Notes under the pieces: model-generated | The model's input: only the letters and a program-made list of their open reading frames with translations | What the model was told of the DNA's origin: nothing | Database searches by the model: none | Shown here: positions 30,140 through 43,101 of the stretch, piece by piece | How the letters are laid out: each line of letters opens with the position of its first letter | Position numbering within the stretch: the first letter of the stretch is position 1 | NCBI GenBank assembly: GCA_025057155.1 | Contig: JANWYD010000004.1 | Location: 124,001 to 188,000, forward strand | Reading direction: 5' to 3' | Length of the DNA: 64,000 nucleotides | Origin: Chloroflexaceae bacterium | GTDB taxonomy: Bacteria > Chloroflexota > Chloroflexia > Chloroflexales > Chloroflexaceae | Program-made: the position numbers and the translations under genes

Positions 30140-30185
30140 GAATCGAATAAATAATATCAAATTTTTGGGGAAAATGGTATACTAT
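30140..30185. promoter_or_regulatory. AT-rich divergent promoter region
   Basis: The gap between the S9 peptidase and the LCP gene contains an AT-rich core in an otherwise GC-rich neighbourhood. On the plus strand TATACT (30178-30183) is a reasonable -10 element, but no good -35 lies 16-18 bp upstream. Confidence 0.4.
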
Positions 30186-30272
30186 GTAGCGAATAGTCTT
30201 TACGGTTCGGCGACACCGGCAAGTGTTGCCCCTGATGGGTCGTCACCGCAGGGGCGCGAAGGCAGCGCTGAT

Positions 30273-31763
30273 ATGGAGTGCGCCGAGGCGCGGCAGTTGC
30301 TTGACGCGGGGGTGGCGCCAGGGTCCACCGATCCGCGTCGCGCGGCGTTGGGGTTCCATTTGTCTCGTTGTGCCGCCTGCCGCGCTTATCGGGAGCATCC
30401 GGGGGATCTGGGGCTGCTCGCCGCGCTGCTGCTGGAGTCGCCGCCACCTGCCCCGCCTGCGCCGCTACCTCCCCCTATGCCCCGCACGAGTCGTGGGCGC
30501 GCTCGTCCGGCCCAAAGGCGCTACGCGGCCTGGGTTGCGGCGATCGCCCTGCTGGCCGGTTTGGGTCTCGTGGTGGGACGTATCGCCGTGGCTGCGTACA
30601 CCATCCAGAGCAATCTGGCAGCAATGCGGGTGACCGGCGCGCCCCCGGTTGTGGCGACACCGGCGTTGCCGGGGGTCGCGACGTTGCCGTCCACTCCGAC
30701 AGCGCCGCCCGTTCGCCCGGCGACCGGCGCCGCCCCCGCCGAGGCAGGCCTCGCTACTGCCGTGGCGCCCGGGTTGACCCTTTCCGTGACCGCCCTGCCT
30801 GCCATCGGCGCCGGCGCCACGCCGGTGCGCCTGCCGGCGATTGACGGGCGGCCCATTCCCACCTTGCCCGCAATCAGCGCCACGCCGGTGCGCCTGCCAG
30901 CGATCGGCGGGCAGCCCCTCCCCACCCTGATGCCGACTGTCCCGGTGCGGCCGATCCCCCGCGAGCCGCTTAACATCCTCCTCCTCGGCAGCGACCGCCG
31001 CCCCGGCGAGAGCTGGCAGACCCGCTCCGATGCGATTGTGGTCGTGCGCCTGGACCCGGCCCGGCAGCGTATCGCCCTGCTCTCGATCCCGCGCGACCTG
31101 GTGGTGAACATCCCCGGCTACGGCTACGCCCGCATCAATGCCGCCACTGTGTACGGCGAGTCTGATCCGTATTTTGGCGGCGGGATGGAACTGGCCCGCG
31201 CCACAGTGAGCGAGTTATTGGGCTTGCCCATTCATCACGTCGTGCGCGCCGATTTTAGCGCCTTCATCGCCGCGATTGACGCCATCGGCGGGGTGGACGT
31301 GGTGGTCGAGCAAGAGTTGTACGATCCGGCCTACCCCACCATGGACTACGGCTACATGGTGGCGCACTTCCTGCCGGGGCCGTACCATATGGACGGTGAG
31401 ACGGCGCTGATCTACAGCCGCATGCGCCACATGGACAGCAACTACGCTCGCAATCGGCGTCAGCAACAGGTGCTCGTCGCCGCCTTCCAGCGCGTGCGCG
31501 AACAGAACCTGATCGGCCAGGTGGAGATGCTGGCCGATCTCACCACCGCTCTGCGCGACCATATCCAGACCGATCTGAGCGTGGAGCAGATGATCGGCCT
31601 GGCCTGGGCCTTCCGCAACGTTGCCCCGGAGATGATTGAACGCTACGCCATTGATGAAAACCGGGTCTATGAAGGGGCCATTCCGGGCGACCCGTATGCG
31701 ACGCTGCCCCTGCCGGGCGCAGTGGAGACCGTGGTGGCGCAGTTTGTGCAGGGAGGGGAATGA
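30273..31763 (+). CDS. LytR-CpsA-Psr (LCP) protein with N-terminal zinc-finger segment
   Basis: 496 residues from the ATG at 30273; the open frame extends 36 residues further upstream but without family character. Residues 1-42 look like an anti-sigma-type zf-HC2 element (MECAEARQLLDAG...HLSRCAACRAY). A membrane span (about 88-106) follows, then a Thr/Pro/Ala linker of about 130 residues with an internal duplication (TPVRLPAI.G.P.PTL). The LCP catalytic domain (about 230-420) has ILLLGSDRR, RSDAIVVVRLDP, LLSIPRDL and IYSRMRHMDSNYARNRRQQ. LCP enzymes transfer undecaprenyl-linked polymers to peptidoglycan or protein. The cytoplasmic zinc finger could sense or bind a partner, which is inference. 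Confidence 0.87.
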   Translation: MECAEARQLLDAGVAPGSTDPRRAALGFHLSRCAACRAYREHPGDLGLLAALLLESPPPAPPAPLPPPMPRTSRGRARPAQRRYAAWVAAIALLAGLGLVVGRIAVAAYTIQSNLAAMRVTGAPPVVATPALPGVATLPSTPTAPPVRPATGAAPAEAGLATAVAPGLTLSVTALPAIGAGATPVRLPAIDGRPIPTLPAISATPVRLPAIGGQPLPTLMPTVPVRPIPREPLNILLLGSDRRPGESWQTRSDAIVVVRLDPARQRIALLSIPRDLVVNIPGYGYARINAATVYGESDPYFGGGMELARATVSELLGLPIHHVVRADFSAFIAAIDAIGGVDVVVEQELYDPAYPTMDYGYMVAHFLPGPYHMDGETALIYSRMRHMDSNYARNRRQQQVLVAAFQRVREQNLIGQVEMLADLTTALRDHIQTDLSVEQMIGLAWAFRNVAPEMIERYAIDENRVYEGAIPGDPYATLPLPGAVETVVAQFVQGGE

Positions 31764-35567: not shown

Positions 35568-37667
35568 CTACCGCAATACCGCGCTTAACGTAGTCGGCTG
35601 CAACCCCAGAGCCTTCATGCGATCGAGGTAGCCGGGCAGCGCCGCGGCGCTGCTGTGGCGTCCGTGCAGCAAGAGAATGGCCCCCCTGGCCTGGGCGGGA
35701 TCAGCCGCGACGCGCTCCAGCCAGGCTGGAAGGCCTGCGTCGTCGGCGCTCCAGTGGTAGGCGATGTAGCCGGCCCGGCCGATCGTCTCGACCATCTGCG
35801 GGGTGGAGTCGCCGTAGGGGAAGCGGAAGTACGGGCGAGTGCTGGCCCCGGTGATCTCGCGCACGATGCGCTCCGTTTCCGCCAGTTCGTTGACCGCGCC
35901 GTCGGCGCCAATGGCCGAGAAGGCCGGGTGGGTCAACGAGTGATTGCCAAGCTCGTGGCCGCGACGCACGATCGCCTTCGCCGCCTCCGGGAACGACTTT
36001 ACCCAGCGACCGGTCACGAAAAAGGTGCCCTTGATCTGGCGCGCGTCGAGCGCGTCGAGGATGGCGTAGAGGCTGGCGTCGTCAATTTCAATATCGAAGG
36101 TCATCGCCACCAGTGGCTGGTCGGGGTTGCCCTGTTTAATGATCGGCGCAGGTGGCAGACTCTCGCCGTCGTGGTAGACCGGCACGACCAGGGGCCGTCC
36201 AGGGCGCAGCGCTTCGCCTGGCGCCAGACGATTGAGGGCGGCGAGAGCGGCAGGGTCGCTGCCGGCGCGCCGGGCGACGCTTTCCAGAGTGTCACCGGAG
36301 GCGACCACGGTGCTGAAGAAGGTTCGCGGTTCGGGGACGCTGGCGGGACCGGGCGGCGGACCCGGCCGGGCCGACGGGCCCAGGGTAGGCACAGGCGTCA
36401 GACCTGGTTTTTCGTCCCCGGCAGCGTTCGATGGCAGCACCCGGCTCACCAGGGTGATCAGCACCAGAATGGCTGCGGCCAGAGCGATCAGTTGCGGCTG
36501 GAGCAGCGGATTGTGCGAGTGTGCTGCCCGAGGCGGGTGTTTCATCGGCTTGCCCACCGTGGTCGTATCCACCACAAACGCGCGCGCCGCTTGCAGGGCG
36601 CGACTCATCGCCATCGCGGCGCGGCGCGGGCGCAGGGGCGCGCCGACGGGCATGCGCGGGGGTGTGGCAGCAACCTCTGGCGGTGGTTCCGCGCGCGCCG
36701 GACGGGGAACGAACGTGAACAGCGCCTCAGTGCCCGGCACGAGCCAGAGGCGCGGCGCGCCCCATGCCCCCGCTTGGCCCTCCAGCGCTGCCCGCCCATC
36801 GGTAACCGCCAGATCCACAGGGTCGCCTGCGGCGATGGCCGTGTAGCACGGCCCGCAGAACGCTGCAACCTGCGCGGTATCGAGACCGCCAAGGGCGATG
36901 GCGCTGATGCCAAGATCGTCGTGCAGGCGGTTGGCCACCGCGCTCAGAGCCGCAGCATCGGCGTCGGCGCTGGCCGCCAGCGTCACCAGGCGCAGATCGG
37001 CATGGTCGGAGAGCATGCTGGCCAGCCCTGCCCCGTCCAGACCTCGTCCGAGCCGCAGACGCGCGGCGTCTCCCTGGCCCCAGGCATCAGCGGCGATGAT
37101 GTGCAGCATGTGGCAGGGTTCTTCGGCCAGGGCCTCGCGCAGGGCGAGGGGGTCAGCGTCGCGCAACAGGTCAATCACCATGCGCCCGGAGCGTGCGGCC
37201 TCGGCGAGGGCGTGGCCCAGGGGGGCGATGGCCGTTTCGGCATCGGGCGCGCAGGCGATCAACAGGCGAACCGGGCCGCTGAGGGGCAAAGGGCGCGGCG
37301 GCGGGCGCAGTTCTCCCGACCGCACCAGCGTGTAATCCTCGCGCACGGCGGGGCGCCAGAGGCGACTCTGGCCGAGAGTGGCCAGTTCCCATGGCAGGTC
37401 GGCCAGGTCCGGCGCAGCATAGAGCTGGATCTGAATGCGCGCGCCGGCCTCGTCGGCGCCCCGGGCCACGTCAATCAACAACTGCCGCACCGGATTGGGA
37501 AATAAGGACCGCCCGACGGCCAGGCTCAGCGCATCGGGGTCCGCCTGCGGGTCGGGCAGGGCCAGGGGCGCCTCGGCCCCCCGCCCGGCAGCAAAGGCCC
37601 GCACCACATAGTTCGCCGGACCACGCCCGCTGACGCTCAGCTGAAAGGGGATCACAGCAGAGCTCAT
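35568..37667 (-). CDS. CHAT-like pseudopeptidase / LysM / NodB deacetylase fusion
   Basis: 699 residues with an unusual order. Residues 1-320 follow the CHAT (caspase-like) pattern: LPWELA (91-96), a CHMLHII strand (185-191), LRLVTLAAS (225-233) and a C-terminal FCGPCYTAIAAGDPVDLAVTDGRAAL. The catalytic His-Gly after the first strand and the Cys after the second are absent (AADAW and AASAD), so the domain is predicted inactive. A membrane span (391-411) follows, then a LysM domain (about 450-498). The NodB polysaccharide deacetylase (517-699) keeps MTFD (Asp525), NHSLTH (His576, His580), RFPYGD and LLLHGRH (His668). Topology predicts CHAT inside, LysM and deacetylase outside. The likely outer role is de-N-acetylating peptidoglycan or another aminosugar polymer. 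The inner role is unknown, perhaps binding a partner. Confidence 0.82.
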   Translation of the reverse strand: MSSAVIPFQLSVSGRGPANYVVRAFAAGRGAEAPLALPDPQADPDALSLAVGRSLFPNPVRQLLIDVARGADEAGARIQIQLYAAPDLADLPWELATLGQSRLWRPAVREDYTLVRSGELRPPPRPLPLSGPVRLLIACAPDAETAIAPLGHALAEAARSGRMVIDLLRDADPLALREALAEEPCHMLHIIAADAWGQGDAARLRLGRGLDGAGLASMLSDHADLRLVTLAASADADAAALSAVANRLHDDLGISAIALGGLDTAQVAAFCGPCYTAIAAGDPVDLAVTDGRAALEGQAGAWGAPRLWLVPGTEALFTFVPRPARAEPPPEVAATPPRMPVGAPLRPRRAAMAMSRALQAARAFVVDTTTVGKPMKHPPRAAHSHNPLLQPQLIALAAAILVLITLVSRVLPSNAAGDEKPGLTPVPTLGPSARPGPPPGPASVPEPRTFFSTVVASGDTLESVARRAGSDPAALAALNRLAPGEALRPGRPLVVPVYHDGESLPPAPIIKQGNPDQPLVAMTFDIEIDDASLYAILDALDARQIKGTFFVTGRWVKSFPEAAKAIVRRGHELGNHSLTHPAFSAIGADGAVNELAETERIVREITGASTRPYFRFPYGDSTPQMVETIGRAGYIAYHWSADDAGLPAWLERVAADPAQARGAILLLHGRHSSAAALPGYLDRMKALGLQPTTLSAVLR

Positions 37668-42096: not shown

Positions 42097-43101
42097 ATGA
42101 TAAGCGTTGACCCGCGCCAGATCGAACAGGCCCGTCTCAGCTTGCAGGGCATGGTTCAGGAGTATCTACTTAGCCCTGAGTACAGTATCAATCTGATTGA
42201 CTTCGGGTTCCCCCGGCGTACCGATCCGGTTACGCGGCGGCGCTTCTGGGACACTGAGAGCGTGAGCCTGCGCTTTCATGTGACCAAAAAATACACCCTG
42301 GATGAACTTGAGGCCCTGAAGCTCAAAGTGTTGCCCCGGCGCATCGGGCAGTTCGAAACCGACGTGATCGAAGCCGAGTACAGTGTGCCCCTCCTGGCGG
42401 AGGTTCCGTCCGGTGCGCGCACAGCGCCCCGCGCGCGGCTCTGCGGCGGGCTGGGCATTTCGGCCTTCGCCGATATTCATGGCACCCTCGGCGGGATCGT
42501 TCGCGATCGCCAGACAGGCGCCCCGATGATCCTGAGCAACTGGCACGTGCTCTACGCCACCCGGAACGCCCGTACTGGCCAGCCGATCTACCAGCCAATC
42601 TTGCGTTCGGGCAAACCCCAGACGGCCATCGTTGCTCGCGCGGCGCGCGAGCGGCTCTCGGCCCCCGTGACCGGCTCTTTCTCCCTGGATGTGGCCGTGG
42701 CTGAGCTGATTGACCCCCGCTCCGAGCGATGGGAAAACTTCCAGCTCGAGATCGGCACGGTCGCCGGAGTGACCAGGCCGCAGTTGGGGATGCAGGTCGT
42801 CAAATCCGGCTTGACCAGCGGCAGAACCTCTGGCGTGGTCACCGGCATTGAAGGGTACGGCAAGATGACCTACCAGGGCAACTGGTTGCGGCTTATCCAG
42901 CGCGTGGTCACCATCAGCCGCTACCCCCTTGATCGCAGTACGGCTCTGGTCAGTATGCCGGGCGACTCGGGATCGTGGTGGCTCGACGCCGCCACGCAGC
43001 GGGCCGTTGCCGTGCACTACGCCGGTCTGCGCGATGGCACCCGCGGTCAGGGCATGGATATGCAGGCGGTCCTCGACGCGCTGGCGGTGGACCTGGCGTG
43101 A
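42097..43101 (+). CDS. Trypsin-like serine protease without signal peptide
   Basis: 334 residues. A helical N-terminus of about 110 residues (LSLQGMVQEYLL, TLDELEALKLKVLP) precedes a chymotrypsin-fold domain. The catalytic triad is visible: His150 in SNWHVLY, Asp198 in SLDVAVAEL, Ser291 in PGDSGSWW. The HV-DVAVA-GDSGS spacing is that of PA-clan serine proteases. No signal peptide or membrane span is present, so it should act in the cytoplasm or after release by an unknown route. The N-terminal region (FWDTESVSLRFHVTKKYTLDELEALKL) might be a pro- or substrate-binding domain. It lies between the 210-residue protein and the helix-hairpin-helix protein. Confidence 0.85.
   Translation: MISVDPRQIEQARLSLQGMVQEYLLSPEYSINLIDFGFPRRTDPVTRRRFWDTESVSLRFHVTKKYTLDELEALKLKVLPRRIGQFETDVIEAEYSVPLLAEVPSGARTAPRARLCGGLGISAFADIHGTLGGIVRDRQTGAPMILSNWHVLYATRNARTGQPIYQPILRSGKPQTAIVARAARERLSAPVTGSFSLDVAVAELIDPRSERWENFQLEIGTVAGVTRPQLGMQVVKSGLTSGRTSGVVTGIEGYGKMTYQGNWLRLIQRVVTISRYPLDRSTALVSMPGDSGSWWLDAATQRAVAVHYAGLRDGTRGQGMDMQAVLDALAVDLA

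Follow-up and report, generated by a model that had tools for sequence, protein, structure and literature searches.

Caspase relatives in bacteria are usually read as immune or death proteases. The locus described here raises the question of what such a relative does once its catalytic residues are lost and it is joined, across a membrane span, to a LysM domain and a NodB-type domain. The window, that is, the whole stretch of 64,000 nucleotides analysed, comes from a Chloroflexaceae bacterium and encodes a protein of this kind. Its reading frame, its position and the motifs quoted in the original prediction all proved exact on re-examination. The parts of the gene are as follows.

35568 to 37667, minus strand: whole open reading frame, 699 amino acids, in the order pseudo-CHAT, linker, membrane span, LysM, NodB
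36708 to 37667, minus strand: pseudo-CHAT domain, residues 1-320 (hhalign, 8tl0 profile match, AlphaFold2, VIA)
37089 to 37091, minus strand: codon of Ala193, at the catalytic-His position of CHAT in alignments (GHG to AAD)
36969 to 36971, minus strand: codon of Ser233, at the catalytic-Cys position of CHAT in alignments (xAC to AAS)
36504 to 36707, minus strand: basic linker, residues 321-388, containing the motif FVVxTTTVGxP
36435 to 36503, minus strand: one predicted membrane span, about residues 389-411 (hydropathy)
36180 to 36308, minus strand: LysM domain, residues 454-496 (Pfam PF01476, E 1.9e-8)
35571 to 36155, minus strand: NodB/CE4 domain, residues 505-699 (Pfam, 3.7e-26)

Domain organisation and the CHAT fold

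A Pfam scan of the full protein returned LysM at residues 454-496 and Polysacc_deac_1 at 513-634. The N-terminal half, run alone against the Pfam CHAT model PF12770, scored 20.5 bits, under the cut-off of 24, and the protein was absent from the results of a whole-genome CHAT search, which found seven other CHAT proteins above the Pfam cut-off. Among its homologues, 12 of 25 matched Pfam CHAT at E≤1, the best at 2e-8. A profile (A1) was built from the aligned N-terminal halves of the 25 homologues, taken from related genomes, and compared by hhalign with CHAT domains of the same order, drawn from the window genome and one related genome. The two matched with a probability of 99.1 and an E-value of 3.9e-19, and the same profile matched the SAVED-CHAT chain 8tl0 in the PDB at E 1.9e-8.

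An AlphaFold2 model of the N-terminal half, built from A1, had a pLDDT of 89 and a pTM of 0.89. Aligned with the CHAT domain of Csx29 using VIA, the model gave a Z score of 19.0 over 271 residues, spanning residues 4-314. The best Foldseek matches were SAVED-CHAT (E 2e-9) and TPR-CHAT/Csx29 chains, and separases, gingipains and caspases came next, in line with a caspase-type fold. A search of a viral library gave no strong match, the two hits at E about 1e-4 having TM-scores below 0.45. Profile comparison and predicted structure thus agree on the CHAT scaffold that had been proposed for residues 1-320, and on these two kinds of evidence we assign the region firmly as a CHAT homologue. The predicted fold is of the caspase type, not one unrelated to caspases.

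The protein has one hydrophobic span, placed at about residues 389-411 in agreement with the single span expected earlier, and no N-terminal signal was seen. The pseudo-CHAT domain lies on the N-terminal side of this predicted span and LysM-NodB on the other side. The window protein shows only a weak charge bias on the two flanks of the span (four versus two basic residues). We infer an N-in/C-out orientation from the missing N-terminal signal and from the LysM and NodB domains having to be outside; the pseudo-CHAT domain would then face the cytoplasm. The juxtamembrane motif FVVxTTTVGxP is common to the window protein and Chloroploca, with a looser form in Chloroflexus. Across the folded domains of the protein, dN/dS was 0.08-0.2 in pairs of congeneric genomes.

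Loss of the catalytic dyad

The stretch CHMLHIIAADAW aligns with the CHAT pattern xxxLHxxGHGxx, which puts Ala193 in the place of the catalytic His, and LRLVTLAASAD aligns with xLVVLxACxx, which puts Ser233 in the place of the catalytic Cys. Both catalytic positions are altered in the alignments, as the original prediction had said. The alteration extends to the family. No row of the Chloroflexales clade has Cys at the catalytic column (0/43), and His occurs at its column in one row of the 43, L025, as a stray residue without Cys. Outgroup CHAT domains mostly retain GHG and AC, the exceptions being dead copies or altered ones. The pseudo-CHAT clade has a support of 100/100 in a maximum-likelihood tree. 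Its topology follows taxonomy, and the domain is conserved across whole genera.

Two ways of explaining the altered residues away are a protease that uses other residues and a gene in decay. The first has in its favour that Cys274 is clade-specific and conserved in most members, and that His186 and His189 are nearly always conserved in the clade. However, three members (L012, L021 and L121) have another residue in place of Cys274, and both histidines are also found in most active CHATs, whose catalytic motif is GHG. No alternative His/Cys pair is conserved in the 43-row clade in place of the lost dyad, and an active protease working through other residues was rejected on this ground. A decaying gene was rejected on dN/dS values well below 1. 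Between congeneric genomes, dN/dS was 0.13-0.20 for the pseudo-CHAT domain (residues 1-320) and 0.09-0.15 for NodB; the former lies near the NodB value, and purifying selection on the pseudo-CHAT domain is clear. Taken together, either explanation is very improbable. A sequencing or frame artefact was also rejected, the same reading frame being present in five congeneric genomes.

Other CHAT proteins of altered make-up were seen. L141:3144-8435 (plus strand, genome G086), an outgroup member, encodes 1764 amino acids with two CHAT domains, the first keeping GHG/DAC and the second dead (GPA/NIN); this active-plus-dead pair in one chain matches the NCBIfam HetF model. L142:1281-6629 (plus strand, G085) encodes 1783 amino acids with two CHAT domains, both lacking the dyad. 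L044:3279-5651 (plus strand, G033) encodes a response-regulator-like protein with an AAA-type middle and a C-terminal CHAT in which the His is kept (GHS) and the Cys position reads NTS.

The NodB half and its distribution among relatives

The LysM-NodB half had been described as apparently intact. This holds for LysM, which scored 34.6 bits against a Pfam cut-off of 20.9, but in NodB motif 1 reads TFDI instead of TFDD. The NodB domain retains D525, E527, H576, H580, R615, D642/D643 and H668, the second Asp of motif 1 being replaced by Ile526. Measured against the CE4 family, motifs 2, 3 and 5 are present (the two metal His, the Arg and the last His) and the tandem-Asp motif 1 is absent; in CE4 enzymes motif 1 has two Asp in tandem, which PMC10967932 describes as a catalytic/metal pair. 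Motif 1 is TFDIE across the whole fused clade, and HS-x-x-HP, R-x-P, W-S-x-D-D and the last His vary little or not at all in 15 members. Other LysM-NodB paralogues of the order mostly read TLDAG at the motif 1 position. Judged by these motifs, the NodB half is strongly constrained yet not classical, and deacetylase activity is plausible but uncertain.

The AlphaFold2 model of the NodB half had a pLDDT of 90.5. The nearest PDB structures were those of BA3943, both mutants and wild type, with active peptidoglycan deacetylases next; Foldseek matched the model to the BA3943 mutant 6hm9 at E 6.5e-17. The PDB titles of the BA3943 structures name a CE4 pseudoenzyme. The restored-activity mutant 6hm9 has TIDD and FRPP in place of the TINV and FAPP of wild-type 7bkf.

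These structures, together with the TFDI motif of the whole fused clade, would fit an outside-in receptor built of two pseudoenzymes, in which LysM, together with a NodB-like domain that is inactive, would bind envelope glycan and pass the signal to the cytoplasmic pseudo-CHAT. The anti-sigma factor DdvA, a membrane signalling protein with a CHAT-like fold, also speaks for such a receptor. On the other hand, little or no variation is seen at D525, the metal His pair, the Arg, the W/D motif and the last His, which suggests catalysis, and the conserved Glu527 or Asp529 could stand in for the missing ligand. We regard a receptor of this type as unlikely, and slightly more so the specific version in which LysM and an inactive, deacetylase-like glycan sensor outside, with a pseudo-caspase inside, form an envelope receptor particular to the Chloroflexales.

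The family was searched for in 158 genomes of the class and in a phylum sample of 301 genomes (E 1e-40), and turned up in just two families of the Chloroflexales, an order of filamentous, green non-sulfur bacteria: the Chloroflexaceae-type family and the Roseiflexaceae. The named genera carrying it are Chloroflexus, Chloroploca, Viridilinea, Oscillochloris and Roseiflexus. Members with the CHAT-LysM-NodB fusion belong to the window genus, Roseiflexus and a relative, g32 and part of Oscillochloris, and in genome G009 the pseudo-CHAT and NodB halves are separate adjoining genes. A standalone form, in which only a short tail follows the pseudo-CHAT, linker and span, is found in Chloroflexus, Chloroploca, Viridilinea, some Oscillochloris, g21 and g31; many such pseudo-CHAT proteins with a span, of about 390-490 amino acids, carry no enzyme. 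The fusion is thus conserved in some genera, while its NodB part is missing in many relatives. In L013 (genome G016) an in-frame TAG at about residue 208 interrupts the fused reading frame, through either a sequencing error or a real split.

The NodB halves of fused or adjacent genes, with one from G017 that has another N-terminus, form one clade (100/100) apart from other LysM-NodB proteins. The simplest reading of the trees is an old fusion followed by repeated loss of NodB, though the tree alone leaves the direction unfixed.

On the inside-out control suggested in the original prediction, the pseudo-CHAT would sense a state of the cytoplasm and, across the membrane, control the NodB deacetylase fused to it. 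Consistent with such control, the fusion is conserved in Roseiflexus and relatives, in the window genus and in part of Oscillochloris; the strongly conserved NodB motifs and the adjacent genes of G009 also fit. However, motif 1 lacks its second Asp, and a conformational change would pass poorly through just one span joined to long flexible linkers. Nor can inside-out wall control describe the whole family, since the pseudo-CHAT and span occur without an attached deacetylase in Chloroflexus, Chloroploca, Viridilinea, some Oscillochloris, g21 and g31. As an account of the family it seems rather doubtful. Since several genera keep only the pseudo-CHAT and the span, the pseudo-CHAT cannot merely regulate an attached deacetylase; standalone members retain it without one, and it therefore has a role apart from that enzyme, probably in binding or scaffolding.

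Gene neighbourhoods, proposed function and known systems

In the Roseiflexaceae genera g21, g23, g27, g30, g31 and g32, a GT4 glycosyltransferase gene lies upstream of the pseudo-CHAT gene on the same strand. The gap is -4 to 42 bp in g21, g30, g31 and g32; in g23 and g27 it is wider, from 70 bp up to 1.8 kb. In the Chloroflexaceae genomes tested, the window genome included, the GT4 orthologue is unlinked and encoded elsewhere. In the window genus the pseudo-CHAT gene is convergent with a CapA-like gene, and LCP and NAGPA genes are near; two further genera partly share these neighbours. No obvious operon joins the window gene to its adjoining genes, no conserved operon partner was found among the neighbourhoods compared within the window's own family, and the standalone members of Chloroflexus adjoin unrelated metabolic genes. 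The glycan-related neighbours point to an envelope function, although linkage is no proof. The LCP-family glycopolymer transferase of the window (30165 to 31763, plus strand) has a weak N-terminal match of zf-HC2/anti-sigma-like type. A 334-amino-acid reading frame at 42097 to 43101, plus strand, contains GDSGSWW as in trypsin-like peptidases and has no Pfam match above cut-off.

The reading that we prefer, with a probability of about one half, is that the family is a membrane-anchored pseudoprotease scaffold, specific to the Chloroflexales, that serves envelope-glycan enzymes. The pseudo-CHAT would act as a protein-binding scaffold or adaptor rather than as a protease, and would recruit or tune enzymes of envelope-glycan synthesis or remodelling. 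Candidates suggested by gene organisation are the upstream GT4 in Roseiflexaceae and the outside LysM-NodB in fused members. HetF, which interacts with FtsI, is a precedent from wall synthesis for a CHAT protein of the membrane.

An immune or cell-death role, with the inactive CHAT acting as an inhibitor of, or a scaffold for, the cell's active CHAT proteases, was also considered. The seven further CHAT proteins of the window genome would provide partners, and catalytic CHATs work in CRISPR-linked defence. Such a role is nevertheless improbable, given the genus-wide conservation, the taxonomy-following tree and the envelope-glycan genes nearby; no defence genes were noticed among the neighbours. 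Lineage-wide retention of the fold, loss of catalysis, and ties to the membrane and to glycan enzymes suggest that the caspase fold has also been put to use in envelope biology. The family offers a testable pseudoprotease case in a bacterial group whose envelope is unusual and whose genetic tools are scarce.

No description of the order CHAT, membrane span, LysM, NodB was found in the papers searched, in agreement with the earlier statement that no described system of this order was known. Each part has relatives. The caspase-like fold over the whole domain is common to the window protein and to CHAT proteins (PF12770) such as Csx29/TPR-CHAT and SAVED-CHAT, and the LPWE, HxLH and C-terminal motifs are common to it and to active CHATs of the same order. 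Unlike Csx29/TPR-CHAT and SAVED-CHAT, it lacks the His and Cys of the dyad and any TPR or SAVED domain, and has a membrane anchor. The CE4/NodB deacetylases nearest to it (BA3943, PdaB-like, PdaC) share the NodB fold and the HSxxHP, RFPYG and last-His motifs, but the window protein has TFDIE without the tandem Asp, and its NodB domain is fused behind a pseudo-CHAT, a span and LysM.

Among membrane CHAT proteins, HetF of filamentous cyanobacteria is recruited by way of FtsI, and septal wall synthesis requires it (PMC8406250). HetF has TPRs, whereas the window protein has none and carries LysM-NodB instead; it gave no match to the NCBIfam HetF model NF045509 at E 0.01. Residues 706-991 of DdvA (PDB 8rot, 8rw5) align with the pseudo-CHAT with a Z score of 17.3 over 253 residues at 18% identity. 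DdvA, a transmembrane anti-sigma factor, is comparable as a membrane signalling protein but differs in architecture, and Pfam and NCBIfam detected no anti-sigma or zinc-finger domain in the window protein. Pseudo-orthocaspases are conserved bacterial caspase homologues without the His-Cys dyad; they belong to the C14/p20 family, have Tyr-Ser as their commonest replacement and are reported to be nearly absent in Chloroflexi (PMC6426788). They are not CHAT proteins, whereas the window protein is of the CHAT type. Pseudo-caspases are thus a kind already known (PMC6426788), to which the pseudo-CHAT membrane family adds a variant.
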